A DNA stretch of 64,000 nucleotides, taken from Phototrophicus methaneseepsis. GTDB taxonomy: Bacteria > Chloroflexota > Anaerolineae > Aggregatilineales > Phototrophicaceae. The notes beneath the pieces are model-generated. The model worked only from the letters and a program-made list of their open reading frames with translations, was not told where the DNA came from and did not search any database. Below, piece by piece: positions 2,484 through 63,722 of this stretch. The translations under genes were made by a program, and so were the position numbers. Each line of letters starts with the position of its first letter. Position 1 is the first letter of the stretch. The stretch spans positions 1,054,001 to 1,118,000 of the forward strand of contig NZ_CP062983.1 in the NCBI RefSeq assembly GCF_015500095.1. Reading direction: 5' to 3'.

Positions 2484-2883
2484 AGATGAGGCTCCATATT
2501 GATTGAATTGATAAATAGCGATGCACTGAGATATTGTACGTCACACTTTATATTATGAGTCTACAGATTTGGTTAAAAATTGTTGTTCAGATATGTAAGG
2601 GTGTACTTAATTTATCATAATAAAGCTTAAACCATGTCAGGCATTGGATTTTAGACTTGACAGGATAGTCTTCCCGAGCTTAGCTCAAGAAATAGTGATA
2701 ATTTCCCATAATGTCAACTGAATAGAGAATAACCTGTCATAGGCTCCCCAAAATGTGGTCACGTCAAACTTGGCATTCTTAGAAAAGTAAAAGGAGCTGG
2801 GGGATTTTTCGTCAAGAAACAACGATACAGGATCATGAGATCCTGAAATTGTGAAGCCATGCCGTGAAAGGGTTGTTTGCGTC
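2484..2883. other. Intergenic region with no supported gene
   Basis: This AT-rich 400 bp lies between the GTG start of the SH3b protein and the end of the XRE gene. The 71-codon frame at 2685-2900 overlaps the XRE 3' end, has no recognisable domain and is not called. I see no clear hairpin or repeat. Confidence 0.5.
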
Positions 2884-3309
2884 TCATGTATCAACCTCAT
2901 GCATTGTGAGTGCCATGTTTTTGAGCATGTGGAGCACGAAGTCGAGCCGATCTTCTGGAATCATGCTCAGGATGTCTAAGGCTCTCTGCTGCCAGATTTG
3001 CGTTTCATCCTCATAGAAATACATAATTGGCTTGCCAAGCGCCCTGGCCCATATCGGTAACTCGGTCACATCAAGTCCAGTCAGGCTGTTTTCGACATTA
3101 GAAATGGCAGATTGACTCGTCTCAAGCAATTCGGCAAGCTCGTCTTGCTTGAGCTTGGCTTCACGACGAGCCTTGCGCACGAGTTCCCCTAACCGCTTTT
3201 CAGACTGTTTTGAGCTAGAATTGTTGACCTTGCGCCGTTCATCAAGTTGTCTGCGAAGAGACAGTGTATGTTGCCAAAAGGAGTGCATCCCGATCAGCAC
3301 CTTCATCAC
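2884..3309 (-). CDS. XRE-family HTH transcriptional regulator (copy A)
   Basis: Residues about 40-100 form a helix-turn-helix of the XRE type (LVRKARREAKLKQDELAELL, TSQSAISNVEN). A conserved tail follows (WARALGKPIMYFYED...MIPEDRLDFVLHML) that is nearly identical to the genes at 22380-22712 and 13428-14684. The first 35 residues replace the MEPDLKKQ start of the other copies. They read on from an upstream open frame, so either the start is uncertain or this is a fusion made by recombination. GTG 3309, ATG 3306 and an internal ATG are all possible starts. It stands alone, without the small ORF and recombinase that accompany copies B and C. Confidence 0.75.
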   Translation of the reverse strand: MMKVLIGMHSFWQHTLSLRRQLDERRKVNNSSSKQSEKRLGELVRKARREAKLKQDELAELLETSQSAISNVENSLTGLDVTELPIWARALGKPIMYFYEDETQIWQQRALDILSMIPEDRLDFVLHMLKNMALTMHEVDT

Positions 3310-3484
3310 CGTGACCTGGGTGATCGTTTTATCTTCGTACCAGCTTGAAAGAGGTGCAGAAACTAAAGAACTCGCAGAAGCATCAGCGACATAATGTCCA
3401 TCAAAATTGTGAAAACAACTACGGACAAGCCTTGTTGGCTATACTCAAGATTCTATCCGTTCTTATGAACTAAACTCACTTTTT

Positions 3485-5638: not shown

Positions 5639-6858
5639 ATGATTTGCAACTCTTTCAGCGCTGAGGTAACAACATTTTGATTAATTGGCTTTTGAATAAA
5701 TAAAGAAGCGCCAAGGGAAAATGCGAGGGCTGGCTCGTTAAGGACGGAGCAAATAATGATCGGTATGTGGGCTAATTCGCTGATATTCTTGATGTTCTGT
5801 AACAACTCCCAACCATCCATCTCTGGCATCATCACATCCAGGATGATTGCGCTAGGAGGGTTAGTCCGAGCAAATTCCAGTGCATGATGGGGGTCTGATA
5901 TACCGTATGCCATGATGTTGTGGACGGAGAGATAGCGACTCAGTAAGTTTACCAATGCCTGATTATCATCGATTATCAAAATCATAGTGCTTAATGAAGG
6001 CATATGCAGGCTTATCTTCCATGTGCCATCACTATCTAAAGTTTGCGAGAGATCCCAATGCAAAATGTTAATCAAGTTTTGCACGGTAGTGTCAATCTCA
6101 CAGTAGGGTGCATCGAGATTTTTGGGCGTATAACAGAAATTGATGATAATCTCTTGCACAGTCTCAGTCACGATAATGATAATATCGTTGTCTTCTACAT
6201 GGAGGATGAGTCGCGCAAGAATGCTAATCAGGATTTGCCGAGCCACAATCGGGTTCGTTGAGACAAGACGTGTGCGCTCGACGGATGAAATATCGACCTG
6301 AGTCGCATGTTTTGTGATGAGTTGGTCAACTGCTTTACATGCCCCTGCGATGAGTTTAAAGACGTTCGTCAGTTCCAGTTCGCTATCTAAATTTGTAAAT
6401 TCCTCCTCAACTGAGGATGCTGTATGGATGGTTGATTTGTCCGTGGTGTGGTCGCTCGACAGAAATTTGACCAGCATCTTGGCGATGGCCACTTCCCCAT
6501 TGCGTAAATCTCGGTGTGCTTGCCGTATTGACAATGAAAGCTCGTCAGCTGTGTCCTGGATGAGCATCTTTTCGACATAGTGGAGTTGTAGCAGATTGTA
6601 TGTCCGAGCGTGGGGAGAATGAAAGCTCGTCTGTGGCCCAGGATTTAAAGATTCAATAGCTCGGATCACCTGATCGTGAACGTAGCGAATGTCACTTTCT
6701 AGAGGTATTTCTTCTTTCAAGCGTTGGATCAGATCAGAGTTTTCCAAGTATGCATAGTCATATAAATGCTTGAGTATCTCCTTGACGACATCAAAAACTG
6801 CATCGGAAACTTCCGTCTCTTTTGTGCTCACGATCGTGACCTCAAAGCTGTGCTTCAT
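5635..6858 (-). CDS. Response regulator with sigma-region-4-like HTH and C-terminal receiver
   Basis: This protein has 407 residues. Residues about 85-125 (LQLHYVEKMLIQDTADEL, LSIRQAHRDLRNGE) read like a sigma-70 region 4 or LuxR-like helix-turn-helix. Residues about 160-280 look like a decayed HATPase fold (ARQILISILARLI in the N-box position, without ATP motifs). Residues about 292-405 are a full receiver (ILIIDDN, AIILDVMMPEMDGWE, IIICS, IQKP). It is the first gene of a two-gene operon with the hybrid kinase. It is divergent from the sugar transporter at 7045, and three direct repeats lie in the shared intergenic region. Putting the receiver at the C terminus is unusual for a DNA-binding regulator. 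Confidence 0.8.
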   Translation of the reverse strand: MKHSFEVTIVSTKETEVSDAVFDVVKEILKHLYDYAYLENSDLIQRLKEEIPLESDIRYVHDQVIRAIESLNPGPQTSFHSPHARTYNLLQLHYVEKMLIQDTADELSLSIRQAHRDLRNGEVAIAKMLVKFLSSDHTTDKSTIHTASSVEEEFTNLDSELELTNVFKLIAGACKAVDQLITKHATQVDISSVERTRLVSTNPIVARQILISILARLILHVEDNDIIIIVTETVQEIIINFCYTPKNLDAPYCEIDTTVQNLINILHWDLSQTLDSDGTWKISLHMPSLSTMILIIDDNQALVNLLSRYLSVHNIMAYGISDPHHALEFARTNPPSAIILDVMMPEMDGWELLQNIKNISELAHIPIIICSVLNEPALAFSLGASLFIQKPINQNVVTSALKELQII

Positions 6859-32962: not shown

Positions 32963-32982
32963 TTCCTCGTTAACTAGGCTTT
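32935..32982. repeat. Right copy of the 31-33 bp repeat, with an added inverted arm
   Basis: The direct repeat of 24774-24806 is at 32951-32981. In addition GCCTAGTTAACGA at about 32930-32943 is the exact inverse of TCGTTAACTAGGC at 32968-32980, making a 13-bp inverted repeat with a 24-25 bp loop. The stop codon of the last SNHS gene lies in the right arm. This looks like a recombination site at the right edge of the sugar island. Confidence 0.55.
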
Positions 32983-33905
32983 ACCAGTTCATAGCGGTAG
33001 TCGATAGCAGTACAAGCATTTGCTTCCAGCCATGCGATCAATGCTGAAGCTCCTAATTCCTGATTGTGAAACCAGAGTTGACGTAGTTCAAATTGCAGGT
33101 TGTTCCGCGTAATTTGGAGACTGCTTAAGCGTAAGGCGAGGCGATTGGCAGGCATTTGACGACCATATGGCGATGCGTCAAAGTAGGTATGCAGTTCGTA
33201 TCGCTTTTGCCAGTTCTGTTTGAGTAGATCAACATATTCTCGTTTAAGCAATTCACTTTTTCCGAGAACTTGCTGAAAGTTGGCTTCGTCATCATGCCAG
33301 GGTGGGAGATTGTCTGGATCAGATAGGCCGCCCGCGAGATATTGCGACAGACTCGCTTCGATTTGATCTGCAATAGCGCTGTTTGGTGCTGTAAAATTCA
33401 TGATTGTAGTGTGATCTATCGATTCTGTATCGGTGGTCTCCATATCATAACCAATTGTTTTTGCCCCTAATCTCGATAGGATGCCTTCAAAAGGCTGAAT
33501 TGTCATCCATGTTTGATCTGGAGACGAGACCATGACATTGCGCCCCACAATTTGGACTGCATTATCAATTAATGCACGTGCATTGCGCTGGGCATCGACA
33601 TTCTCGAAACCGGGATAATTTTCCAGATAGTATCCTGCCCAATTTGTCCAATCGATGGTGGAAGGCCACTGCACGCTGTACTTTTCAGCAAAGGTCTGTT
33701 CTGGTGGTAAGGGTGTGATCTGCCCTTGTTGCATGGCTGCCTGTGATTGATCTCGGTTGTCTCGATGCCATTTGTCGATGGTAAAGAGCATATCACGCAG
33801 CTCATCAAATGCGGATTGTGCATCAGACACATTTTTAAATGTACCGACGACCCAGAAGAATCCGCTGTGATTGCTGCTGAATTGCTGCCATATCGAAATT
33901 TTCAT
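32970..33905 (-). CDS. SNHS-family protein 1 (uncharacterised, 311 aa)
   Basis: The ATG at 33905 overlaps the stop of SNHS2 as ATGA. The protein opens with MKISIWQQFSSNHSGFF and VVGTF, the hallmark shared by four tandem genes. Further shared blocks are PPEQTFAEKYSVQW (about residues 68-81), NVMVSSPDQTW...LSRLGA (about 120-150) and the C-terminal GASALIAWLEANACTAI (about 285-302). There is no signal peptide or membrane segment. The repeated V-V-G-x-F...A strands hint at ferredoxin-like alpha-beta domains. It is the last gene of a coupled operon led by a radical SAM enzyme. Function unknown; it may be the enzyme's substrate or partner. Confidence 0.8.
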   Translation of the reverse strand: MKISIWQQFSSNHSGFFWVVGTFKNVSDAQSAFDELRDMLFTIDKWHRDNRDQSQAAMQQGQITPLPPEQTFAEKYSVQWPSTIDWTNWAGYYLENYPGFENVDAQRNARALIDNAVQIVGRNVMVSSPDQTWMTIQPFEGILSRLGAKTIGYDMETTDTESIDHTTIMNFTAPNSAIADQIEASLSQYLAGGLSDPDNLPPWHDDEANFQQVLGKSELLKREYVDLLKQNWQKRYELHTYFDASPYGRQMPANRLALRLSSLQITRNNLQFELRQLWFHNQELGASALIAWLEANACTAIDYRYELVKPS

Positions 33906-34861
33906 GATTCCCAACTTTTCAGTTCAATTGAAAAATCAACGGTACAGCCTTCGTCACGCAGCCATCTAATGAGGGCTGGCAACCCCTGAACGAGGTTGAT
34001 TCCGAAATTGAGATTTTCGATAATGAGTTTGTCGCCCGCCGCATGGCTCGTTGATGGTGTATCTGTATAAGCATAAGGCTTGGCGTTAGAAAAAGCCCAG
34101 AAGTACCAATCTGCTAGCTTTGATTTTTCAGTGTTAATAAAGGGTTTCGCCATGTCATTGTGTTTTTGCTGCAGCTCGGAAATACGAGGGACTTTGTCTG
34201 GGACACCATTGATACCGAGCTGCCGCATTTCTTCGCGGATAGATTCCAACTTTTTGTGATTGGCTTGCTGGTCATTGTATGCGGCGACAATGGCATCTTC
34301 TGACACTTCTGGCTTGCCTACAAAGTAAAATGCCCAGGGCGATATGGGAGAAGGCATCGACGTGTAATCGGGGCTATCAAGATAACTCGCCAATGCACTG
34401 AGATAGTCATTGGTGACTTGCTCCAAGCGCTGCGCTGTCGCGCTATGCGGGACGCGTGCTGTTACCGTGACAATGAGACCTCCATTGCTCATTTCGCCAT
34501 CCTGTTGCACACTGGCACCCAGTTTCGGTAGAAGTTCATCAATGACTGCGGCACCCATCCATGTGGATGCTACGTATGAACTCACGATTACCGTATTCTC
34601 AAGCTGTGTAACCTGCTGATCTGCGTTGTAAAGCCAGTCGAGATGCCTATCCCATGCAATATTATATTGCTCTGCATACCAGACTTCAGCAGGCACAAGT
34701 TTAGCATCATAAATGTCAATCCGTTGTTCAACAATATACCCGAATATCTCCAAAAGCGTTTGCGCAGCTTGTTCCGCATCAGATACTGACTTAAAAGTGC
34801 CGACGACCGTAAAATCACTACTATGGTTGCTGCCGAACTGCTGCCAGATAGAGATTTTCAT
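33902..34861 (-). CDS. SNHS-family protein 2 (uncharacterised, 319 aa)
   Basis: The start is the ATG at 34861, overlapping the SNHS3 stop (ATGA); a longer frame to 34897 runs through SNHS3. The N terminus is MKISIWQQFGSNHSSDF followed by TVVGTF. The shared blocks are PAEVWYAEQYNIAW (about residues 62-75), NTVIVSSYVASTW...LLPKLGA (about 95-125) and GLPALIRWLRDEGCTVDF near the end. A helical insert of about 60 residues (IREEMRQLGINGVPDK...ISELQQKHNDM) distinguishes it from its paralogues. No catalytic motif or export signal is visible. Confidence 0.8.
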   Translation of the reverse strand: MKISIWQQFGSNHSSDFTVVGTFKSVSDAEQAAQTLLEIFGYIVEQRIDIYDAKLVPAEVWYAEQYNIAWDRHLDWLYNADQQVTQLENTVIVSSYVASTWMGAAVIDELLPKLGASVQQDGEMSNGGLIVTVTARVPHSATAQRLEQVTNDYLSALASYLDSPDYTSMPSPISPWAFYFVGKPEVSEDAIVAAYNDQQANHKKLESIREEMRQLGINGVPDKVPRISELQQKHNDMAKPFINTEKSKLADWYFWAFSNAKPYAYTDTPSTSHAAGDKLIIENLNFGINLVQGLPALIRWLRDEGCTVDFSIELKSWES

Positions 34862-35748
34862 AAATCGTCCTCGCTCATGCCGGGAGGTAAATTCCACGCT
34901 GCTTGATAGATGCTGTGATGGATGTTCTTACATCCTTTACTTTCTAACCAAGTGAGGAAAGCAGGTAAACCGACAGCAATCTTGGAAAAATTGAGGCCAC
35001 GAAACGCCAGTTGACGATCATCTAGGGTAACTTCGGCGGCGGTTCGTGATTGCTGTAGACGCGCACTCACACAGAGTATGATTTGGGAAATTCGATAATC
35101 GTTGTTTATGGCTTCGACGGAACTCGATTTGTGATCAGACTGAGTATGGTAATTCTCAACAAACGTTTTAATCCCAGACAAGATGTCATCGAGTTCCCTC
35201 GATTTTGGATGATTGACAACCCAGGGCCATGCTTTGATTACGTTTGTCTCATCGCTTAAATCAGCCTCTTGTATAATCTCGTCACCGATTTGCTTGCTGG
35301 GAACTTCGCAGGCAATATCAACAAGCACAGCTTCGCCGCCTTCAACCTCCAGCGCAATCTTTGCTCCTAATTTCATCATTAATTGATCAAACATGTTTGG
35401 GCCGATGAATGTCTCGACATTGCCATTGCTCACAAAGACATGATTCTCGAAAACCTGTACCATATCATCGTGATAACGGCTATTGGCTAGGAAATCGATA
35501 ACTTGTTCGTGATGGATGCCATATTGAGTTGCCATGTCTTTTTCAATCGGCGTAGGCTCTATTGTTGCCATATCGAGTACCTGCTGCCGATAGGGTTCAT
35601 TCTGACTGTACCACGCGATGATACGGCGAAGGTCATCACGTAAGGAATCCGCTGTCCGTTGTGCCGCACTAGCGGAATCAAACGTGCCTACAATGGTGAA
35701 GTTGGCGCTGTGGTTGCTGCTGAACTGCCGCCAGATCGAGATTTTCAT
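34858..35748 (-). CDS. SNHS-family protein 3 (uncharacterised, 296 aa)
   Basis: It begins MKISIWRQFSSNHSANF and IVGTF, 11 bp after the stop of SNHS4. The shared middle blocks read TPIEKDMATQYGIHH and NHVFVSNGNVETF...LMMKLGA, and the C-terminal block GLPAFLTWLESKGCKNI. The end (about 15 residues with NLPPGMSEDDL) extends past the paralogues. No signal peptide, membrane helix or known enzyme motif is visible. The pattern of very similar first 25 residues and divergent remainder is what would be expected if the N terminus is recognised by a common partner. Confidence 0.8.
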   Translation of the reverse strand: MKISIWRQFSSNHSANFTIVGTFDSASAAQRTADSLRDDLRRIIAWYSQNEPYRQQVLDMATIEPTPIEKDMATQYGIHHEQVIDFLANSRYHDDMVQVFENHVFVSNGNVETFIGPNMFDQLMMKLGAKIALEVEGGEAVLVDIACEVPSKQIGDEIIQEADLSDETNVIKAWPWVVNHPKSRELDDILSGIKTFVENYHTQSDHKSSSVEAINNDYRISQIILCVSARLQQSRTAAEVTLDDRQLAFRGLNFSKIAVGLPAFLTWLESKGCKNIHHSIYQAAWNLPPGMSEDDL

Positions 35749-35759
35749 GATGCGCCTCT

Positions 35760-36572
35760 TTAGTCGGGATATTTGGGATTAGGAATTGAGCGAAAGGATA
35801 TGGTGATATTCGTGCAGCCTTCTTTTGTGAAGTAGTCTATTAGCAGGCGAATCTTCCCGGCATACTCTTCATTCTCTTCCAGATACAACATGATCCCCCA
35901 TAGATTCAGGCGATTTTCATTGCGAGCAACCCTGAACATGCGCGGTTCAGAGTCGTCTGATTCGAGATCGTAATAAATGATGTCAAATGGCAAGTCAATA
36001 TTGGGTGAATAAGCCTCTTCATAAATTTGCCAGCCATGCTGATGAAGCGTCTCAAAATCTTCTCTGAACCCTTCATAGAGTAGTTCGGCTGCTTCAGGTT
36101 CAATTGGAAGGTGACATTCAACATCCATCACCAGAATACTGTTAGCGTGGGTACGGGACTCTGACACATATTTGTAAACAGATGCCCCATAGTCTTTGAG
36201 CAATTCGTCAAACGGCTGAGGGCCATTCAATATTCCGAGATTGGGATTGGTCACAAAGACAAAGTTTTGATACTTATAGAGTGGTTTTCTGAAATTGTGC
36301 CAGTAAAACCAATTCAGACTATGTGACCAAGTAACGTTGAGTTGCTTCTGCAATTCGGCCTCGATGGGTGTGAGTTGTTCGGTTTCTGTCTTTTGTCCCC
36401 ATGCCATCATCTCCTCACGGGTGAGGTTGTTCCACCAAGCTTCGATGCGATCCAGTATTTTCTGTATGTTGGCTGCTGCCTGTTCTGCTGCGGAGACGGA
36501 TTCAAATGCCCCAACTACCGTGAAATCAGCGCTGTGGTTGCTGCTGAATTCCTGCCAGATAGATAACTTCAT
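35760..36572 (-). CDS. SNHS-family protein 4 (uncharacterised, 270 aa)
   Basis: It opens MKLSIWQEFSSNHSADF and VVGAF. The shared blocks are TPIEAELQKQLNVTW, NFVFVTNPNLGIL...LLKDYGA and KIRLLIDYFTKEGCTNI. It is the shortest and most acidic of the four. Its first 15 codons overlap the 3' end of the radical SAM gene in another frame (overlap of 47 bp), so it is directly coupled to that enzyme. There is no export signal. As the member closest to the enzyme gene it is the best candidate for a cognate substrate, but this is inference. Confidence 0.8.
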   Translation of the reverse strand: MKLSIWQEFSSNHSADFTVVGAFESVSAAEQAAANIQKILDRIEAWWNNLTREEMMAWGQKTETEQLTPIEAELQKQLNVTWSHSLNWFYWHNFRKPLYKYQNFVFVTNPNLGILNGPQPFDELLKDYGASVYKYVSESRTHANSILVMDVECHLPIEPEAAELLYEGFREDFETLHQHGWQIYEEAYSPNIDLPFDIIYYDLESDDSEPRMFRVARNENRLNLWGIMLYLEENEEYAGKIRLLIDYFTKEGCTNITISFRSIPNPKYPD

Positions 36573-37584
36573 CGTTGACCCTCCCCGTATGGTTCAATGC
36601 GCGTTGTGGCAGGCGGGCGCAGCCACCAATTGCGGCGGCTTGACGGTTCTTCCGGTGTGACTGCCAGTATTGACGAACGTCGGTCAAAGTCTCAAACGGT
36701 ATCGTCCAGTGATGAAAAGAGCAGGGCTTGATGTGTCGGTCACTGGTTATCGACAGGAAACCATCGCCTGCACTGCAGTCTGACGTCTCAAAAAGTCGTG
36801 GTACATCGGATAGTAAGTCGCCCCAGCAGACATCCAGTTTGATTTGCACATCACCCTTGAGGTTGTCATACATACGCTGAACGAAAGCCGAGAATGCTTC
36901 GTAGTGTTGCTTCTGGAAGTGCATCGTTGGATCGCTGCCTTTGTAACTAAGCAGCAGGAAATCGCGAACACCGAGGCTGAACAATCTCAGAAACTTCGCT
37001 TCAATCGTTTCTAACTCATCGGGCGTGATCAACCAGTTGACACCAAAGCGCGCATTGTGATTGACGAGCAGTTCAATCGTCTGCTCATAGTGATTGGTGT
37101 CATAGAGCGATAGGCGAATGTTGCCATATTTGCCCTCGATGCTGTGGAGAAACGCTGGTGTGAGCTTCATGCCATTGGTGGTGAAGTTGACCGCTAATTG
37201 GCTGGTACTGTACAGCTTATGAATGAATTGTTCCCAATTAGGGAACAGCATGGGTTCGCCACCGCCGAAAGCAACTTCCAGCACACCCCAATCGCTGGCT
37301 TGTTGACAAAATTCCAGCAGCGAATCATACGCCCAATCGCTGGGAGACTGGAGATTGCGATAGCAGAAGTGGCATTGCAGGTTACAGATGTTCGTCACCG
37401 CGATGAGCAGCGTTCTGGGGGCGATACGCTTTAGATGTGTCGTTTCTTCACCTTCGAGCTTGACGTTCAGGCCGGTATCACGCTCGAACAATAGCAGTGC
37501 GCCGTCCAATGGGTGGGGTCGCCAATTGAGGCTGCGTAATTGTGGTGGCAAGAAGGTCTGGTAGTTGTCGAGAATGTCGCTCAT
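36526..37584 (-). CDS. Radical SAM enzyme of the SNHS operon
   Basis: The ATG at 37584 has GGGAAGAAGA upstream; the frame is open 12 bp further but without support. The 352 residues hold the radical SAM motif CNLQCHFC (cysteines near residues 67, 71 and 74), GGGEPM for SAM binding and a TTNG strand. The C-terminal part has CSAGDGFLSIT, PCSFHH and GGC, fitting a short Twitch/SPASM-like auxiliary cluster region. The N-terminal LLLFERDTGLNVKLEG block precedes the barrel. Such enzymes often modify peptides or proteins. The SNHS genes downstream and the mini-ORF 12 bp upstream are the obvious candidate substrates. Confidence 0.87.
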   Translation of the reverse strand: MSDILDNYQTFLPPQLRSLNWRPHPLDGALLLFERDTGLNVKLEGEETTHLKRIAPRTLLIAVTNICNLQCHFCYRNLQSPSDWAYDSLLEFCQQASDWGVLEVAFGGGEPMLFPNWEQFIHKLYSTSQLAVNFTTNGMKLTPAFLHSIEGKYGNIRLSLYDTNHYEQTIELLVNHNARFGVNWLITPDELETIEAKFLRLFSLGVRDFLLLSYKGSDPTMHFQKQHYEAFSAFVQRMYDNLKGDVQIKLDVCWGDLLSDVPRLFETSDCSAGDGFLSITSDRHIKPCSFHHWTIPFETLTDVRQYWQSHRKNRQAAAIGGCARLPQRALNHTGRVNDEVIYLAGIQQQPQR

Positions 37585-37596
37585 TCTTCTTCCCAA

Positions 37597-37683
37597 TCAT
37601 AAAACAATTGATATTGAACGTAGATCTGTCGTGAAGATGGCACTGTGGTTGCTGTTGAACTGCTGCCAGATGGATATTTGCAT
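37597..37683 (-). CDS. 28-codon mini-SNHS ORF upstream of the radical SAM gene
   Basis: The frame starts MQISIWQQFNSNHSAIF and ends after 11 more residues (TTDLRSISIVL). It matches the N-terminal 18 residues of the four SNHS proteins and then diverges. It stops 12 bp before the radical SAM start. It is either a fifth paralogue reduced by deletion, or a short precursor-like peptide made just ahead of the enzyme. The size and placement fit a precursor peptide, while the abrupt loss of similarity fits a remnant. It is too short to decide by sequence alone. Confidence 0.45.
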   Translation of the reverse strand: MQISIWQQFNSNHSAIFTTDLRSISIVL

Positions 37684-37788
37684 AGTTGGCTCCGAAGATA
37701 GAACATGCTGTTAGTATATCATGCAAAATGAACCATTGTGAACCATAATAGTCTCTTGTATGGTAAGTCGATGTCCATATAAGAAATT

Positions 37789-38221
37789 ATGTTCGGTGTG
37801 CTAACAATTACAACCACCTATCGTCCCGCAACGGATCTCGGCTACTTGCTGCATAAGCATCCGGCGCGGGTGCAGACCTTCAAACTAGCTTTTGGCGAAG
37901 CGCATGTTTTTTATCCCGAAGCGACAGAAGAACGCTGTACGGCGGCGCTTCTGCTGGACATTAATCCCATTGGATTAGTTCGTGGTAAGCGTGCTTTTGC
38001 CTTCTCGCAGTACGTCAACGATCGTCCGTATGTGGCGTCTTCGTTTTTGAGTGTGGTTATCGCGCAGGTGTATCGCTCGGCACTGAATGGCACCTGCAAG
38101 GATCGGCCTGAATTGGTCGAGACACCTATTCCGCTGGAAGTGACGATTAGTGTGATGCCCTCTCGCGGAGGCGAAGCGTTGCTGACACGGTTGTTTGAAC
38201 CGCTGGGCTATATGGTCACCG
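37789..38221 (+). pseudogene. hen1: Truncated hen1: N-terminal domain of the 3'-terminal RNA ribose 2'-O-methyltransferase
   Basis: The first 145 codons match the N-terminal domain of bacterial Hen1 (LTITTTYRPATDLGYLLHKH, FGEAHVFYPEATEERCTAAL, LDINPIGLVRG, YVNDRPYVASSFLSV, RGGEALLTRLFEPLGYMVTA). Full Hen1 has about 460 residues with a C-terminal methyltransferase. Here homology stops near 38221, and the frame then runs antisense through the FGE-like gene to 38484. No pnkp partner is present. In intact systems Pnkp and Hen1 repair and protect cleaved RNA. This copy has lost the methyltransferase and should not be able to methylate. The break coincides with the loss of the C terminus of the opposite gene. 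Confidence 0.85.
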
Positions 38222-39117
38222 CAGTAATCAGACTGATACCAATCACTTGTCCATTCCCAAATGCCACCGCTCATGGCGTGAAGTCCATAGTGATTGGGTG
38301 GGTAGCTCCGCGAACGCTGTATGTAGAACTCACTAAAGTGATTGAAGTCGCAGTTGTCGGCGGTAGGTGGTTCACTTCCCCAGGGATAGGTTTTGTCAAT
38401 CAATCCGCCTCGCGCACTCTTTTCCCATTCAGCTTCTGTCGGCAGACGATAAAGTGTACTTTCCGTGCTGAGTTTGCGACATAAGTCTTCAGCAGCCTGC
38501 CAAGAAACACTCACCATTGGCTTGCTATTGTACTGCCAGGGATGATCCGGATTTTCACGGGGTACATCACCGAATATCTTGTCCCCTGTAGTCACTTCCT
38601 CGCCGCGACCGTATAGAAGTTCAGGTGCGTGAGCGTGCCAGTCACGGGCTTCTGTGGTGTCGTCTTCACAATACTGCCGTCTGATCTTGTTCGCTTCATA
38701 GAGGACGAAATATGCCATTCGATGTGGTGGCTCCTCCTTCGGGATGCTGTGTGGTGCTGGTTCCCATTCCATGAGATCGCAATAGGTAGCCCAGCTCACT
38801 GGAATATCCCCCATCCAGAAGTGGTCGAGATCAACCGGATGAACAGGCTGCTCATCCGGGTCACCATTTCCTGAACCCATCAGGAAGGTTCCGGCGGGCA
38901 TATAGCGGAACACCATACCGTGTTCGATGACGGACAGTTGATCGAGCAGGCGCATTCGCGCCTGAATGATATCTTGTCGATCAGAATCTAAGCCAAAAGC
39001 ACGATCATATGCGGTCGCCGCCTGATGAAGATCATCTTTTGCTTCAAGCTGCTGTGCTAAGGTGAAGAATGTATCTGCATTTCCATCCAGCCCATGTGAT
39101 TGTCGTAGCTTATCCAT
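38222..39117 (-). pseudogene. FGE/sulfatase-modifying-factor-fold protein, 3' end lost
   Basis: From the ATG at 39117 about 298 codons match the gene at 41216: a TPR-like N terminus (AATAYDRAFGLDSDRQDI), then the FGE fold (FRYMPAGTFLMGSGNGDPDEQPVHPV, PVSWATYCDLM, YRLPTEAEWEKSARGG, YPWGSEPPT, YGLHAMSGGIWEWTSDWY). After YQSDYC the sequence turns into the antisense of hen1, at about 38222, so the final 60 residues with GGSW and GFRLYRG are missing. The open frame continues to 37975 by chance. The product would be truncated and is likely non-functional. Confidence 0.8.
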
Positions 39118-39217
39118 ATCACCTCCGTTCGTGCTACGCTTTCAGTATACGGTTAGACGAAATGCGAGAATAGCGAATGATGTTACACTGAGTAGAGACG
39201 CTACTTAGGGGGTATCC
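39118..39217. promoter_or_regulatory. Divergent promoter region between FGE-like and unknown gene
   Basis: This 100-bp gap separates the divergent starts at 39117 and 39218 and must hold both promoters. TATACG and TACACTGAG-like elements are present, but I cannot assign -10 boxes with certainty. Confidence 0.35.
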
Positions 39218-39856
39218 ATGCCCAACAGAGATTTAAAGTTAAACGCATTGTCCCGATTCTCGAAGTCCTCACCAAGATTGGTGCTGGAAGAATACAGTCA
39301 TTGTGAAGTTCCAGCAGGTTGTGGCGGTGTTGTGTTGCGCTGGCGACGAGCCGAAGAACCATTCACAATGTGGTTGAGACAAAATACATCGGCGCGAACA
39401 ATGGTAATGACGCTAGACGGTGAGAACATCCTCTGGATGACTCGATTATCTGTAAACTGGGGCCATCATTTGTTTGCTATGTCCTTTGAGGAGGTCGATC
39501 TCTCTCACGGTTTTTTGCTGTTTTCAGCACGGTTAGATGATCAATTCATCCGTATTTTGCAGCCTGAAGGTGAGCCGGAAGTGCTCTCGAAACCTGATGG
39601 TAAATGGAAGTATACGCTTGATGAACCCGCATCTGAGGAATGGCAGTCACCAGACTTTGATGATTCAAGCTGGGCACCTATGGTGGCGAAAACCCTGCCA
39701 AGCAAGGGGTTTCACGGACATGATATAAGTGATTTTTGTCAACGAATACGCGATATCGGTGCTGAAGACCTAGGTATTGATGCAGATACCGATGCCAGTA
39801 GAGTCTGGATCCGACGTGCTTTCACGATCCAGTCTCCCACACAAGGTCAGGAGTAA
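39218..39856 (+). CDS. Uncharacterised protein of the radical SAM/FGE cluster (212 aa)
   Basis: I do not recognise the family. The N-terminal half is beta-rich (GGVVLRWRRAEEPFTMWL, MVMTLDGENILWMTRL, VNWGHHLFAMSF). Residues about 135-165 read WKYTLDEPASEEWQ and FDDSSWAPM, resembling the W...FDDS.W strand pattern of galactose-binding-like beta sandwiches, and the C terminus has WIRRAFTIQS of the same fold. There is no signal peptide. Its stop lies 5 bp before the second radical SAM gene, so they form an operon. It may bind the substrate or a carbohydrate. Confidence 0.7.
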   Translation: MPNRDLKLNALSRFSKSSPRLVLEEYSHCEVPAGCGGVVLRWRRAEEPFTMWLRQNTSARTMVMTLDGENILWMTRLSVNWGHHLFAMSFEEVDLSHGFLLFSARLDDQFIRILQPEGEPEVLSKPDGKWKYTLDEPASEEWQSPDFDDSSWAPMVAKTLPSKGFHGHDISDFCQRIRDIGAEDLGIDADTDASRVWIRRAFTIQSPTQGQE

Positions 39857-39861
39857 ACACC

Positions 39862-41214
39862 ATGTCCAACTATCAGGATACGGTTCATGCTCCATTGGTG
39901 CTGGTACCACAGTATTTCGGCAGTACGGTGTTCAATCGTAGTAACTCACGCTACTATCCGTTCGATGCGGAAACCACCACGCTGCTGCGACGGGCACAGC
40001 TTGAACCGTTTGAGGCACTGCTGGCAGAGATCGATGATCCGGTCAAACGCGAACAGGCACTCAATTTCTTCTTTCACTTCGATGACATGGGGTTTTTCAC
40101 TGGTGATCACTATTTCACCGGGAAGGTGCTGAATGTGGAACCAGCAGTCGATCACCTGACCGGACCGCTCGCAGTACATCTGGAAGTCATTGCCGCCTGT
40201 AACCTGACCTGTACCCATTGCTTTGCTGGAGAGCTTCCAAGACGCGAAAAACGCCTGACCTTGAAGGAAATCGAGCGTGTTTTCGAGGATATGGCGAAGA
40301 TGGGCAGTTATCGCCTAGGACTGACCGGTGGTGAACCACTCTTGCGAAAGGACATCTTCGACATCGTTGACATGGCAACCGACTACGGTCTGCATCCGTG
40401 TCTCACAACCAATGGACTGCTCATCACAGAAGAAGTTGCCCGTGAATTTGGGAAACGCGACCTCGTATGGTTGAATGTCAGTCTGGAAGGTGCCAGTGCG
40501 GTCACAAATGATCCAGTCCGGGGAGAGGGTACATTCACACAGGTACTCGATAAACTCAAGATTCTGGCGAACCATACCCGTTTTACGATGGCATTCACCG
40601 TTATGAGTACAAATGCAGATGAGGTTGTCCCTTGTGCCGAACTTGCACATAGTGTGGGGGCTTCTACCGCCGTGTTTCGCCCGCTGTACCCAGTCGGTAC
40701 CGCGCAGGGGTTTCTGAATGATTTGATGCCCACCTTTGAGCAGTATAACAGGGCACTGAATCTACTGGCAGAACTCGAAGTCGAACCTGGACAAACTGAT
40801 CTAAACGCCATCGATCCATTCAGCCCATGTAGCCGGGAAGAGACACAGGCGATCACTTACAGCAATCATGGCTGTGGCGCAGGTAACCTGGTCTGTTCGA
40901 TCTCTGTTTCAGGCGATGTCAACCCGTGTAGCTTCCTCGGTTCCGGTTTTGTGGCAGATAATGTTCGCCACCGGTCACTGTCGGAAATCTGGCACAGCAG
41001 TGGGAAATTCAACGAGATTCGCAATTATCCTGGTGGTACAGATGAGACATTTAGTGGCGGCTGTCGCGCTCGATCGCTCGTGATGGGTGGTTCAGCCAAC
41101 GCGCCGGATCCCTGGTTGAATGAACGGGAAGCAATGATGAAGGCTCCGCGCCAGAGTAACGTTACCTTCTATGATCCTCTCGATATTGTGCGTGTTGCCG
41201 GGCAGGATAATTGA
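39862..41214 (+). CDS. Radical SAM/SPASM-domain enzyme
   Basis: AGGAG lies 10 nt before the ATG. The 450 residues begin with a 100-residue N-terminal region (LVPQYFGSTVFNRSN, YYPFDAETTTLLRRA) that may be a leader- or partner-binding segment. The radical SAM motif CNLTCTHC has cysteines near residues 113, 117 and 120; GLTGGEPLLRKDIFDI and LTTNGLLI follow. The C-terminal SPASM-like part (GCGAGNLVCSISVSGDVNPCSF, LSEIWHS, GGCRAR) holds cysteines for auxiliary clusters, as in PqqE-like peptide-modifying enzymes. It lies between the unknown protein and the FGE-like gene. The substrate may be one of the SNHS proteins or an unseen peptide. Confidence 0.9.
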   Translation: MSNYQDTVHAPLVLVPQYFGSTVFNRSNSRYYPFDAETTTLLRRAQLEPFEALLAEIDDPVKREQALNFFFHFDDMGFFTGDHYFTGKVLNVEPAVDHLTGPLAVHLEVIAACNLTCTHCFAGELPRREKRLTLKEIERVFEDMAKMGSYRLGLTGGEPLLRKDIFDIVDMATDYGLHPCLTTNGLLITEEVAREFGKRDLVWLNVSLEGASAVTNDPVRGEGTFTQVLDKLKILANHTRFTMAFTVMSTNADEVVPCAELAHSVGASTAVFRPLYPVGTAQGFLNDLMPTFEQYNRALNLLAELEVEPGQTDLNAIDPFSPCSREETQAITYSNHGCGAGNLVCSISVSGDVNPCSFLGSGFVADNVRHRSLSEIWHSSGKFNEIRNYPGGTDETFSGGCRARSLVMGGSANAPDPWLNEREAMMKAPRQSNVTFYDPLDIVRVAGQDN

Positions 41215-41215
41215 T

Positions 41216-42370
41216 ATGGAGCTCGAGCATATCCTATCTGCTACTGATCCCGAAGGTGATGCCGAAGAGGTATTTGGATTTGCACAGCAATTAGAAAAGC
41301 GAGGGGACTTGGACGCAGCTGCCAGTGCATATGACAGAGCTTATGGGCTGGCTCCAGACCGTGACGATATTCGTTCTGCGAGAGCAAATCTTCTAGATCG
41401 GTTATCTGTCATCGAGCATGGCATTGGGTTCCGTTACATACCCGCCGGAACCTTCCTAATGGGGTCGGAGAGTGGTGACCCTGATGAGCAACCCGTGCAT
41501 CCAGTTCGCCTGGACGCTTACTGGTTGTCAGAAACGCCGATTAGCTGGGCAAAGTTCTGCGAATTGATGGATTTTCAGCCGCCACCAGATGGACGTCCCA
41601 ATGATGGTTGGGAATCTCAGCAATCACCTCAGTGGATTGATCAGATTCTGCAAGTGCTTCCAGTTGATTATCGACATCCTGATCTCTGGAAGTGGGCACT
41701 GAATGCTGATTCGCGTATCTGCCTTCAATACTGTGAAAATGAGACACTTCGAGCCAGAGATTGGCATGCACACATTCCCACAATGGAGTGGCAAAAGTCA
41801 GATGGCACAACTCAAACATCGGCTGACATGTTTGGACTTCCACCGAGAATAGATCAGAATGCACCATTGGCATATGGTGAAAAGCCCATCGTAAGTGTTC
41901 CCTACGAGGGTGCGCTTGCAGCAGGATTACGGATTTCCACGAAAAGCACAGAGTATCGTTTGCCGACTGAGGCAGAGTGGGAAAAAGGGGCACGTGGCGG
42001 TTTGATCAATCAGGCTTACCCCTGGGGCAATGAGAAGCCCACACATGATCGATGTGACTTTGCACGCTTTGACGAATTCTCTCTGCTTAAGCCAAAGTCA
42101 CTTACACCAAACGGTTATGGACTCTACGCCATGAGTGGCAGCGTATGGGAGTGGACATCAGACTGGTACGATGCCAAATACTACGCATCTAGCCCTGTAC
42201 AGAATCCGCCGGGGCCGAAAGGCGGCGAGGAGCGTGTATTGCGTGGTGGTTCTTGGACTGATGATGCCGAGGCTGTTACGGTCTCCTACCGGATGTCTGG
42301 ACAATACGGGGGTGCTGCAAATATTGGATTTCGTCTGTATAGAGGTCTAACGAACACTATAGAAATATAA
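41216..42370 (+). CDS. FGE-fold protein with TPR-like N terminus, lacking the FGE active-site cysteine
   Basis: The ATG at 41216 follows the radical SAM stop by one base. Residues 1-55 form a short TPR-like helical pair (AASAYDRAYGLAPDRDDI). Residues about 65-380 are the formylglycine-generating-enzyme/EgtB-like C-type-lectin fold (FRYIPAGTFLMGSESGDPDEQPVHPV, YRLPTEAEWEKGARGG, YPWGNEKPT, YGLYAMSGSVWEWTSDWY, VLRGGSWTDD, ANIGFRLYRG). The stretch before GFRLYRG has no cysteine, so the copper-binding pair of true FGE is incomplete. It may be a non-heme iron or binding protein instead. It is a close paralogue of the broken gene at 38222-39117. Confidence 0.85.
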   Translation: MELEHILSATDPEGDAEEVFGFAQQLEKRGDLDAAASAYDRAYGLAPDRDDIRSARANLLDRLSVIEHGIGFRYIPAGTFLMGSESGDPDEQPVHPVRLDAYWLSETPISWAKFCELMDFQPPPDGRPNDGWESQQSPQWIDQILQVLPVDYRHPDLWKWALNADSRICLQYCENETLRARDWHAHIPTMEWQKSDGTTQTSADMFGLPPRIDQNAPLAYGEKPIVSVPYEGALAAGLRISTKSTEYRLPTEAEWEKGARGGLINQAYPWGNEKPTHDRCDFARFDEFSLLKPKSLTPNGYGLYAMSGSVWEWTSDWYDAKYYASSPVQNPPGPKGGEERVLRGGSWTDDAEAVTVSYRMSGQYGGAANIGFRLYRGLTNTIEI

Positions 42371-42652: not shown

Positions 42653-43090
42653 ATGACCAACGCAAACGACCAGACCCTTCGACGATTGGATGCTTTCAAC
42701 AGCTGGTTGAGCGATGTTTATCGTGAGGGGATGGATTTCAGTAACTTACTAACTGCGACAGGCTTCAGTGAATCTGAAATCGAACACATCAAACAAGCAC
42801 ATCTAAGGGAATTCTTGCAAGCTGTGATAGATCTATTGGCAAGTTACCGTGATCTACGCAACGAAGACTTCGATTTGCTCATGGTTCAGCACTATGGTTT
42901 GATCGACGGCAAGCCGCAAGACCTGTACCAGATGGGTTCGCGCTATGGTGTCTGTGGTGAACGTATGCGTCAATTAGTCCACAAACGGTTGGTCTTGTTT
43001 CAAGCCTCTGGTAGGCAGTCACAACTACAGGCGGATTTTGCTGTGATTGGTCGACGTTTACTGGACGATGAGAGCGATCGTAAGGTATAG
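42653..43090 (+). CDS. Small protein with a sigma-region-4-like helix-turn-helix (145 aa)
   Basis: Residues about 78-118 (DFDLLMVQHYGLIDGKPQDL, YQMGSRYGVCGERMRQLVHK) match the pattern of sigma-70 region 4, where the second helix of the HTH reads GVxxERxRQL. The N-terminal half is helical and acidic and lacks sigma region 2, so it cannot act as a full sigma factor. It stands alone after the radical SAM/FGE operon. It could be a regulator of that cluster or a DNA-binding relic. The family is not named. Confidence 0.65.
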   Translation: MTNANDQTLRRLDAFNSWLSDVYREGMDFSNLLTATGFSESEIEHIKQAHLREFLQAVIDLLASYRDLRNEDFDLLMVQHYGLIDGKPQDLYQMGSRYGVCGERMRQLVHKRLVLFQASGRQSQLQADFAVIGRRLLDDESDRKV

Positions 43091-61577: not shown

Positions 61578-63722
61578 ATGTTCAAGAGAGTTTGTACTCT
61601 AATCCCAATATTGCTAACAGTCATCATGAGTGTTAGCGTGGGCTTCGTTAGTGCACAGGACGTTGATAGCAAAGTAGGTATCGTACTGCCGACGCGTGAC
61701 GAACCGCGCTGGGTTCAGGACGAGACTCGTTTCCAGAATGCATTGGCAGACGCAGGTTATGATGTCAGCATTCTGTTCAGCCAGGGCGATTCTGCCCGTG
61801 AACGTGCCAACGTAGAAGACCTGATCACGCGTGGCATCGAAGTTTTGATTATCACCCCCCATGATGGTGACGCAGCAGCAGCAGCAGCAGAAGCCGCTTC
61901 CGCCGCTGGTGTGACCGTGATTTCCTATGATCGTTTGATCACCAATACAGATGCCGTGGATTACTATGTGACCTTCGACAGCGTTGCAGTCGGTGAAGCA
62001 CAGGCACAGTACTTGGTTGACCATGCAGAAGGTCAGGGGAACCCGCTGTATCTGTATGCTGGTGCCGCTTCGGACAACAATGCATTCCTGTTCTTCGAAG
62101 GTGCATGGAACGTCCTCCAGCCGAAGATTGCTGATGGGACCTTCTACATCGTGAACTCCAGCGAAGCAGTTGCAGTTCAGGATCAAGCAGAACTCAGCCG
62201 TGATCAATTTGCTCAGATCATTGGTCAAATCACCACAAACTGGGACTTCAACACCGCCAAGAACCTTGCTGAAGCCAACTTGACTGTGGCAACAGCCGAG
62301 GACAAGGGTGATGTGTTCATTCTGGCACCGAATGACGGTACAGCTCGCGCCATTGCAGATGCCTTCGCAGCTGACAGTGATGTATCCAGCTACATCGTCA
62401 CCGGGCAAGATGCTGAACAAGCCTCCGTTCAGTACATCATTGATGGCAAGCAATCAATGACTGTCTTCAAAGATGTTCGCACACTCGTAGACGACGCCAT
62501 CAGTGTCGCAGTCACCGTGTTAGAGGGCGAGACCCCTGAAACCACCGGTGCCTACAACAACGGCGAAGTTGACGTGCCTGCACTGCAGTCTGAGGTTATC
62601 ACTGTCGATGCTGACAATGTGGTCTCAGCTCTGATTGAATCTGGCTACTATGCCGCTGAAGATTTTGAGAATCTACCCGAAGCTTCTGAATCAACTGAAG
62701 ACATCACGGGCCGCGTAGGTATCGTACTGCCGACGCGTGACGAACCGCGCTGGGTTCAGGACGAGACTCGTTTCCAGAATGCATTGGCCGACGCAGGTTA
62801 TGATGTCAGCATTCTGTTCAGCCAGGGCGACTCTGCCCGTGAACGTGCCAACGTAGAAGACCTGATCACGCGTGGCATTGAAGTTCTGATTATCACCCCC
62901 CATGATGGTGACGCCGCCGCCGCTGCTGCAGAAGCTGCTTCCGCCGCTGGTGTGACCGTGATTTCCTATGATCGTTTGATCACCAATACAGATGCCGTGG
63001 ATTACTATGTGACCTTCGACAGCGTCGCAGTCGGTGAAGCACAGGCACAATACTTGGTTGACCATGCAGAAGGTCAGGGGAACCCGCTGTATCTGTATGC
63101 TGGTGCAGCTTCGGATAACAATGCATTCCTGTTCTTCGAAGGTGCATGGAACGTCCTCCAGCCGAAGATCGCTGATGGAACCTTCTACATCGTGAACTCC
63201 AGCGAAGCGATTGCCCTTCAGGACCAGCCAGAACTCGGTCGTGATCAGTTTGCTCAGATCATTGGTCAAATCACCACAAACTGGGACTTCAACACCGCCA
63301 AGAACCTTGCTGAAGCCAACTTGACTGTGGCAACAGCCGAGGACAAGGGTGATGTGTTCATTCTGGCACCGAATGACGGTACAGCTCGCGCCATTGCAGA
63401 TGCCTTCGCAGCTGATAGTGATGTATCCAGCTACATCGTCACCGGGCAAGATGCTGAACAAGCCTCCGTTCAGTACATCATTGATGGCAAGCAATCAATG
63501 ACTGTCTTCAAGGATGTTCGCACACTCGTAGACGACGCCATCAGTGTCGCAGTCACCGTGTTAGAGGGTGAGACCCCTGAAACCACCGGTGCCTACAACA
63601 ACGGCGAAGTCGATGTGCCTGCACTGCAGTCTGAGGTTATCACCGTCGATGCTGACAATGTGGTCTCAGCTCTGATTGAATCTGGCTACTATGCCGCTGA
63701 AGATTTTACAGGTCTTGAGTAA
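61578..63722 (+). CDS. Tandem-fused sugar-binding protein (two XylF/ChvE-like domains)
   Basis: The 714-residue protein has one signal peptide (residues 1-26, GFVSAQD) and two type-I periplasmic sugar-binding domains, starting at VGIVLPTRDEPRWVQ near residue 33 and again 347 codons later. The two domains differ at only about four residues (for example VAVQDQAELS against IALQDQPELG) and are nearly identical in DNA over 1 kb. They are joined by ENLPEASESTEDITGR. Each has the xylose-binding pattern (ITRGIEVLIITPHDGDAAAA, SYDRLI, GNPLYLYAGAASDNNA, VTGQDAE). The usual protein has one domain of about 350 residues. The ATPase gene follows, so this is the receptor of a CUT2 importer. Confidence 0.92.
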   Translation: MFKRVCTLIPILLTVIMSVSVGFVSAQDVDSKVGIVLPTRDEPRWVQDETRFQNALADAGYDVSILFSQGDSARERANVEDLITRGIEVLIITPHDGDAAAAAAEAASAAGVTVISYDRLITNTDAVDYYVTFDSVAVGEAQAQYLVDHAEGQGNPLYLYAGAASDNNAFLFFEGAWNVLQPKIADGTFYIVNSSEAVAVQDQAELSRDQFAQIIGQITTNWDFNTAKNLAEANLTVATAEDKGDVFILAPNDGTARAIADAFAADSDVSSYIVTGQDAEQASVQYIIDGKQSMTVFKDVRTLVDDAISVAVTVLEGETPETTGAYNNGEVDVPALQSEVITVDADNVVSALIESGYYAAEDFENLPEASESTEDITGRVGIVLPTRDEPRWVQDETRFQNALADAGYDVSILFSQGDSARERANVEDLITRGIEVLIITPHDGDAAAAAAEAASAAGVTVISYDRLITNTDAVDYYVTFDSVAVGEAQAQYLVDHAEGQGNPLYLYAGAASDNNAFLFFEGAWNVLQPKIADGTFYIVNSSEAIALQDQPELGRDQFAQIIGQITTNWDFNTAKNLAEANLTVATAEDKGDVFILAPNDGTARAIADAFAADSDVSSYIVTGQDAEQASVQYIIDGKQSMTVFKDVRTLVDDAISVAVTVLEGETPETTGAYNNGEVDVPALQSEVITVDADNVVSALIESGYYAAEDFTGLE
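61674..63711 (+). repeat. About 1-kb direct repeat within the sugar-binding gene
   Basis: Unit 1 (61674 to about 62670) and unit 2 (62715 to about 63711) have a 1041-bp period, an exact multiple of three. Differences are mostly silent (for example a CAGCAGCAG run against a GCCGCCGCC run in the alanine stretch), with four amino-acid changes. This points to a recent duplication or ongoing gene conversion. Confidence 0.9.

Follow-up and report, generated by a model that had tools for sequence, protein, structure and literature searches.

The 64,000-nt stretch of DNA analysed here, called the window, covers bases 1054001-1118000 of the single-contig genome (5.63 Mb) of Phototrophicus methaneseepsis. 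On its minus strand, at 32970-36572, four tandem genes follow a gene for a radical S-adenosylmethionine (SAM) enzyme, rSAM1 (Table 1). Just as the initial annotation had described, their products begin with a common N terminus, MK[IL]SIW[QR][QE]F[SG]SNHS and then a V[VI]G[TA]F-like strand, for which we call them SNHS proteins. All four also have a VxVS...LGA block in the middle and a WL...GCT block in the C-terminal part. The rSAM1 gene ends 47 nt inside the first SNHS gene, and at two of the junctions between SNHS genes the overlap is 4 nt, which makes the translational coupling proposed in that annotation plausible. This pair of an enzyme and tailed proteins, a relative of which is joined in distant bacteria to the gene of an antiviral-type immune sensor, points to an undescribed module for protein-tail modification.

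Table 1. Features of the window around the SNHS genes (ORF, open reading frame; FGE, formylglycine-generating enzyme).
Feature	Position	Strand	Description	Basis
SNHS_a	32970..33905	-	DUF6375-related	ORF list, Pfam match, AlphaFold2 model
SNHS_b	33902..34861	-	DUF6375-related; alone among the four above the Pfam cut-off	PF19902 match
SNHS_c	34858..35748	-	DUF6375-related	ORF list, Pfam match
SNHS_d	35760..36572	-	DUF6375-related; overlaps the end of rSAM1 by 47 nt	
rSAM1	36526..37584	-	Radical SAM enzyme, 352 aa	Pfam Radical_SAM, E 4.9e-10
Short ORF	37597..37683	-	MQISIWQQFNSNHSAIFTTDLRSISIVL; 28 codons, fifth SNHS 5' end, upstream of rSAM1	
hen1 remnant	37789..38223	+	Ancestral neighbour, not part of the module; 3' border approximate	Hen1_L match
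FGE1	37975..39117	-	FGE-fold ORF; the antisense hen1 remnant stands in for its C terminus; considered unrelated	
212-aa unknown, rSAM2 (SPASM), FGE2	39218..42370	+	Separate operon; judged unrelated to the module	

Do the SNHS proteins belong to a named family? The initial annotation recognised none, which is wrong. All four window proteins match DUF6375 (PF19902) at E 2.3e-6 to 2e-3, one of them above the gathering cut-off: SNHS_b, read from an upstream GTG start, scores 28.7 bits (cut-off 27.5) at E 2.3e-6. When the profile of 23 SNHS proteins was aligned with that of five DUF6375 proteins, hhalign gave a probability of 96.5 and E 8.4e-10 over 109 columns, spanning DUF6375 positions 1-123. 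Judged from these alignments, the N-terminal half of the SNHS proteins is a DUF6375 domain. The likeness to DUF6375 thus extends over the N-terminal domain and its tail. The differences are the length of the SNHS proteins (225-408 aa over the 23, 270-319 aa for the window's four, as against about 130 aa for a single domain with a profile length of 132), the second unit in the structure model described below, and the single window protein in four that exceeds the Pfam cut-off. Sequence searches with the SNHS proteins gave nothing below E 0.3 in the PDB and nothing below E 0.04 in NCBIfam and PADLOC, and their assignment to a known unrelated enzyme or immunity family was rejected.

The AlphaFold2 model of SNHS_a has a mean pLDDT (per-residue confidence) of 80.7 and a pTM (predicted global fold score) of 0.80. 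Its residues 1-11 have pLDDT below 50 and no secondary structure. They are followed by two tandem beta-alpha-beta-beta-alpha-beta units, with elements at 17-22, 26-49, 117-120, 123-127, 137-145 and 149-154 in the first and at 164-172, 176-191, 264-268, 271-277, 282-295 and 299-308 in the second (intervening helices are left out of this listing). The second unit resembles ferredoxin-like and ACT folds, with VIA matches of Z up to 6.8 that reach only residues ~160-311; the fold of the first unit is therefore deduced from the order of its strands and helices. In a Foldseek comparison with the PDB, the best matches were ferredoxin-like designs at low TM score, with DNA polymerases among them. The Chloroflexota SNHS proteins may accordingly be described as a hyperconserved tail of 14 residues and two predicted ferredoxin-like units, and the window proteins are classed, on this model, as two-unit variants that contain DUF6375; DUF6375 proper would be the tail and one such unit. 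The middle and C-terminal blocks are then probably the last strand-helix-strand parts of the two units.

The conservation is concentrated in the tail. Mean pairwise identity among the 23 SNHS proteins (253 pairs) is 82.5% in residues 1-14, 56.5% in residues 15-23 and 23.6% beyond residue 23. W6, F9, S11, N12, S14, G21 and F23 are invariant in 23/23, and position 13 is H in 19 of the 23. The alignment left out an SNHS-family ORF without the tail motif (locus L018, 6783-7466), two with incomplete N termini (L021, 1-576 and 1862-2410), one at a contig end (L019, 10930-11170), a disrupted copy (L020, 9399), a degenerate fragment that follows the gene of L016, the 28-codon ORF of the window and the SNHS genes of G403:C312 and of genomes G406 and G407, the tails of the latter two being examined separately. 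At the corresponding positions, W, G, E, H, S and N are found in 7/7 single-unit DUF6375 proteins (MK[IV]W..[YFH]G[SA]EHS.N). In the whole-genome loci, 27 distinct genes fit W..F.SN[HN]S, which are all of those caught by a looser tail motif; family members without a tail would not appear in that search.

Is the common N terminus a protein feature or a result of recent exchange between the genes? Between pairs of window genes, the first 24 residues contain 17-20 identities, of which 6-11 are encoded by different codons. The N-terminal conservation is acting at the protein level, and gene conversion as its source was rejected because the window genes differ there at synonymous sites. Serines 10, 11 and 14 are encoded only by AGC/AGT and serine 4 only by TCN in the 23 SNHS genes, and this fixation of codon class per site fits uninterrupted purifying selection on each of these serines. 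Note that the strongest conservation falls in the unfolded part of the model, which is what one would expect of a tail that is recognised or modified. A segment of about 14 residues that is recognised or modified by the rSAM enzyme would fit the data.

A fifth SNHS 5' end lies upstream of rSAM1, in the short ORF of 28 codons, whose DNA matches an SNHS 5' end in L014 over 41 bp (85%). A motif search requiring H13 found no short counterpart in the other loci, and for this reason the ORF is most likely a fossil, likelier so than a minimal precursor like those of ribosomally synthesised and post-translationally modified peptides.

Pairing with rSAM1 in Chloroflexota

A profile search of genome contigs found ten SNHS loci (L014-L023), all in Chloroflexota assemblies. 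An rSAM1 gene, 55-83% identical to the window's, adjoins the SNHS genes in six of them. As for the other four, L020 and L021 are second loci of two genomes already among the six, and L022 and L023 come from genomes whose rSAM1 sits elsewhere, beside other SNHS genes. Counted by genome, all nine SNHS-bearing Chloroflexota genomes have one rSAM1 match (E 1e-20) with at least one SNHS gene adjacent to it, so the view of the initial annotation that the SNHS and rSAM genes belong together is borne out. The number of SNHS genes per genome ranges from one to about seven, and four genomes (G403, G405, G406 and G407) have additional SNHS genes on other contigs. When nine rSAM1 loci were compared ORF by ORF, with fragments, shadow ORFs and the divergent L018 ORF set aside and two of the loci only 4 kb long, rSAM1 and SNHS alone were common to all nine. 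Any other gene occurred in at most two, for example hen1 in the window and L014, and two genes in L017 and L034.

At E 1e-25, rSAM1 was found in one of 400 sampled genomes of the phylum, namely the window's own. The DUF6375 Pfam profile, which is weak on SNHS proteins, matched in two of 301 phylum genomes, the window's and G266. The latter is kin to the window genome at the level of the phylum only, and its DUF6375 gene overlaps an rSAM gene (read as two ORFs) by 4 nt. Candidate defence genes of the PDC-M38A/B kind lie directly upstream of this G266 pair (L013, 223-1979).

What kind of enzyme is rSAM1? Its CxxxCxxC motif and the Pfam match in Table 1 place it in the radical SAM superfamily. 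Cysteines 253, 270, 288 and 322 of its C-terminal part are invariant in 7/7 aligned Chloroflexota rSAM1 sequences, which suggests a putative auxiliary cluster. No Pfam SPASM match was found, and rSAM1 is below the cut-off for the best 25 of 80 NCBIfam families. It is like the rSAM/SPASM maturases of ribosomal peptides and proteins, PqqE, MftC and HxsC among them, in its core, in the coupling of its gene to that of a proposed substrate and perhaps also in its extra C-terminal cysteines. Unlike them, it has neither the SPASM match nor a place in those best 25 NCBIfam families, and the proposed substrates are folded proteins of 130-400 aa with the conserved stretch at the extreme N terminus and no leader/core layout.

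In PADLOC the best model for the rSAM cores was prokaryotic viperin (E 1.9e-15 for rSAM1, 5.8e-19 for the enzyme of L038, a viral contig treated below). The model matches only core residues 66-164 of rSAM1, and the NCBIfam viperin model gives 48.2 bits against a cut-off of 180. With no full-length match, the identification of rSAM1 as a viperin was rejected.

The pair on plasmids and a viral contig

The pairing is not confined to Chloroflexota. DUF6375 is matched in 16 plasmid records, and in 16/16 the match touches an rSAM annotation, the partner being annotated as DUF6375 in 15 and as a hypothetical protein in one. The rSAM gene overlaps the DUF6375 gene in all 16. A reciprocal plasmid search with the rSAM protein returned the same 16 and one unrelated 29% match annotated mftC. 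These records are 12 from Vibrio, two cyanobacterial and two from Deinococcus. On viral contig L038 the order is rSAM (680-1588), DUF6375 (1585-1974) and a third gene (1986-6140). The plasmid rSAM partners are homologous to the Chloroflexota rSAM1 (hhalign probability 99.8, E 8.9e-29). The initial annotation had named homologues mostly without rSAM neighbours as the finding that would speak against it. What we see is the opposite, in 16/16 plasmids, the viral contig, G266 and 9/9 SNHS-bearing Chloroflexota genomes.

Other searches were negative. None of the queries with the SNHS N terminus, DUF6375 and rSAM matched a phage record, SNHS_b matched no plasmid record, and at the DNA level the Vibrio pair was absent from the E. 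coli genomes. Scans of viral contigs with the DUF6375 and SNHS alignments confirmed no member; scans of this kind can overlook members, since one of them missed the DUF6375 gene of L038. With rSAM1, the viral contigs gave one 31% match over 83 residues (L074), with no tail motif in the fetched stretch.

The third gene, found directly downstream of the pair in L038 and in all but one of the 16 plasmid records, encodes an Avs2-like NTPase of the STAND class (signal transduction ATPases with numerous domains). Its product has 1384 aa in L038 and 1361 aa in Vibrio, and the two cyanobacterial proteins have 1331 and 1420 aa. For Deinococcus QL22, the homology starts at 8424, the DUF6375 stop being at 8420, and the gene is annotated from 8808. 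By PADLOC the third gene of these plasmid and viral relatives is Avs2, that is, type 2 of the antiviral STAND ATPases (AVAST), with E 4.4e-113, 3.9e-99, 1.5e-94, 6.4e-111 and 4.5e-98 for five proteins; the Pfam NACHT match is weak. The Picosynechococcus protein also matches a solved Avs2 structure, 9o4e (E 8.7e-25). The contig of G266 ends inside the start of an Avs2-like gene (47% identity over 184 aa). Insertion elements of the IS3 type split the gene in two of the 12 Vibrio records, and in D. peraridilitoris such an element stands in place of it.

A plasmid search with the Avs2-like protein of L038 returned 23 records. Fifteen of them, covering at least 78% of the query, are all within the 16 rSAM-DUF6375 records, and the eight weaker matches (19-60% covered) are all outside; three of these eight were inspected and had no annotated rSAM gene within 4-5 kb. 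The Avs2-like genes form a subfamily of their own which travels with rSAM-DUF6375, despite the matches to PADLOC Avs2 and 9o4e. For one Avs2 gene on a Rhodothermus plasmid, a 9.8-kb stretch shows no rSAM annotation, and the window locus has no Avs2 match.

Defence-like genes lie near some of the three-gene cassettes, namely BREX genes, a SIR2 gene matching Dsr1 models and PDC-M38 genes. In L038, phage head genes adjoin the cassette, and the cyanobacterial and Deinococcus stretches contain plasmid genes and little that is defence-like apart from one TIR-domain gene. Two Vibrio loci (L039, L041) have the operon just upstream of the resistance genes qnrVC6 and dfr on conjugative plasmids. At the edge of another viral contig (L076, 10-3939) there is a second Avs2-like protein, 31% identical to that of L038, whose upstream sequence is beyond the contig.

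The adjoining FGE operon

The plus-strand operon of a 212-aa unknown protein, a SPASM-type rSAM and an FGE-fold protein, reported in the initial annotation, is present at 39218-42370. Does it form one protein-modification system with the SNHS genes, as was proposed there? The two operons diverge from each other across 100 bp (39117/39218), both include genes for an rSAM and an FGE-fold protein, and FGE1 and FGE2 are 49% identical; their alignment stops at residue 310 of 380, fading from about residue 298. Against this, rSAM2 was found in 0/8 other SNHS genomes at E 1e-40 and in 1/301 phylum genomes, the window's own, at E 1e-60. Likewise, no homologue of FGE, rSAM2 or the 212-aa protein was found in the fetched flanks of the ten SNHS loci (E 1e-3).

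The remains of hen1 give a further clue. The remnant matches Hen1_L at E 1.2e-66 over profile positions 2-149 of 242, and it is 82% identical over 142 aa to the Hen1 encoded beside rSAM1 in L014, where rSAM1 is divergent from a longer hen1 in its place, with Pnkp beyond. The rSAM1-hen1 order is common to both loci, with about 72% DNA identity, and in the window the hen1 sequence breaks off where FGE1 sets in. From this common order, the missing part of hen1 was most likely displaced by the FGE block, and from the distribution of rSAM2 the two operons are probably neighbours by rearrangement. A single system of both operons is very improbable and already largely refuted, and we rejected the FGE-rSAM2 operon as a part of the SNHS system in favour of a chance neighbour. 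The initial interpretation is therefore supported in part: the link of SNHS and rSAM1 stands, while the two-operon system and the lack of a named family do not.

Some other features of this region may be recorded. rSAM2 is an MftC/AhbD-like SPASM rSAM below the cut-offs of the best 25 of 80 NCBIfam families, and FGE2 is a protein of tetratricopeptide repeats and an FGE domain. Downstream of FGE2, a small ORF (42653-43090, +) has weak matches to EAD1/death-fold and to sigma factors. Further away, an ORF at 61578-63722 (+) consists of two near-identical tandem halves that look, by eye, like sugar-binding proteins.

Substrate, subunit or signalling protein

How might such a module work? In the scheme we propose, the rSAM would bind the tail W-x-x-[FYH]-[SGA]-[SA]-[NE]-[HN]-S and install a radical-dependent modification on it, with W, S or H/N as candidate residues, and the ferredoxin-like unit would present the tail so modified. 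Where the third gene is present, the modified DUF6375 protein may prime, gate, license or report to the Avs2-like sensor, which would trigger its effector upon phage infection. In Chloroflexota the unit would have been doubled and the family expanded, and one rSAM would serve linked and unlinked substrates with no STAND partner nearby. The tail is the most likely rSAM substrate because one enzyme is combined with many tails, the tail is conserved far above the rest, the pairing is constant and the rSAM gene is translated just ahead of its partner. That the module consists of one rSAM enzyme and the DUF6375 family, with the rSAM modifying the tail and the three-gene form serving the sensor, seems to us about evenly balanced between right and wrong; the substrate role, the chemistry and the defence function are what we infer. 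To go further, DUF6375 would be a new class of folded rSAM substrates and, with the Avs2-like sensor, would make up a novel type of AVAST whose NLR-like (nucleotide-binding leucine-rich-repeat) receptor is armed or gated by a post-translationally modified adaptor, the Chloroflexota enzyme modifying the whole tailed family. This fuller proposal is tentative, and we doubt it rather more than we believe it.

Are the tailed proteins substrates at all? They might instead be rSAM subunits or targeting partners, the enzyme acting on a small product or another macromolecule and the tail being a docking peptide. Viperins make ddh-nucleotides, and viperin is the best PADLOC model for the rSAM cores; the strict one-to-one pairing in the three-gene form would also suit a complex. 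The viperin match spans only ~100-140 core residues, however, and looks generic, as MoaA and other families score alike and far below their cut-offs (best 25 of 80). One rSAM for up to about seven SNHS paralogues, some of them unlinked, suits an enzyme with its substrates better. We consider the non-substrate explanation unlikely.

Several observations weigh against the proposed tail modification in the service of a sensor. An SNHS-family ORF beside rSAM1 lacks the tail motif (L018, 6783-7466), and position 13 is N in 4/23 SNHS proteins. The low pLDDT of the tail may come from a shallow alignment and from invariance instead of disorder. The four extra cysteines of rSAM1, kept in 7/7 Chloroflexota sequences, are kept in 0/5 plasmid rSAMs, where, one of the four positions aside, the other cysteine columns vary; the chemistry may therefore differ. 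The rSAM of G266 has no match to rSAM1 at E 1e-20. A 16-kb stretch of D. peraridilitoris has the pair and no Avs2-like gene. Independent lineages are few: the 12 Vibrio records, with identical scores, represent one plasmid lineage (the five opened have identical rSAM and DUF6375 accessions), which leaves about five lineages in the 16 records. The DUF6375 survey covered plasmids, viral contigs and Chloroflexota. Finally, the window and L014-L023 gave no Avs2-like tblastn match at E 1e-3.

This last result, together with the nine rSAM1 loci having nothing in common but rSAM1 and SNHS, would suit a housekeeping or signalling role of the Chloroflexota cluster, only the short DUF6375 form having been recruited by an Avs2-like sensor and not the cluster as a whole serving phage defence. 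Such a role is compatible with the chemistry of tail modification. It is weakly opposed by the PIN, DUF433/DUF5615 or HTH genes, of the toxin-antitoxin kind, near some SNHS loci, by the Hen1-Pnkp RNA repair genes adjoining the L014 locus, and by the lineage-specific multiplication, which resembles that of conflict-system genes. We give it nearly, though not fully, an even chance.

Are there precedents for the tail-modifying module proposed here? In the passages of Kaur et al. 2020 (PMC7159879) that concern FtsH-ternary vWA-MoxR conflict systems, an rSAM is proposed to modify a separately encoded peptide, so that an rSAM with a target from a separate gene has been proposed in a conflict system before. 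The present module is unlike those systems, as far as these passages describe them: no vWA, MoxR or FtsH is among the annotated neighbours of the plasmid loci, with no search aimed at them, and the rSAM goes with DUF6375, joined in plasmids by an Avs2-like protein. That AVAST sensors can take up an exchangeable module of two genes has a precedent, according to parts of PMC12799240, in the nuclease-protease accessory pair of Avs1, with different enzymes and presumably different activation chemistry. In P. aeruginosa, according to the portion of PMC10250203 that describes it, a core defence hotspot has an rSAM gene at its flank, next to a DUF4011 gene. In the open-licence literature of PMC, outside which most subscription papers lie, no paper naming DUF6375 was found, hence no function of DUF6375 in print; nor was there one joining radical SAM with Avs2 or, among the matches listed in the broader searches, one on the rSAM-DUF6375 pair.

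What would the finding mean? DUF6375 gains an rSAM partner that is constant and a segment that can be tested as its target, and a three-gene rSAM-DUF6375-Avs2-like operon is exposed on plasmids, some of them conjugative, and on a viral contig. We know of no AVAST system in which a radical post-translational modification is a step. Should the tail carry such a modification and the sensor require it, a bacterial NLR-like immune pathway would include this step.

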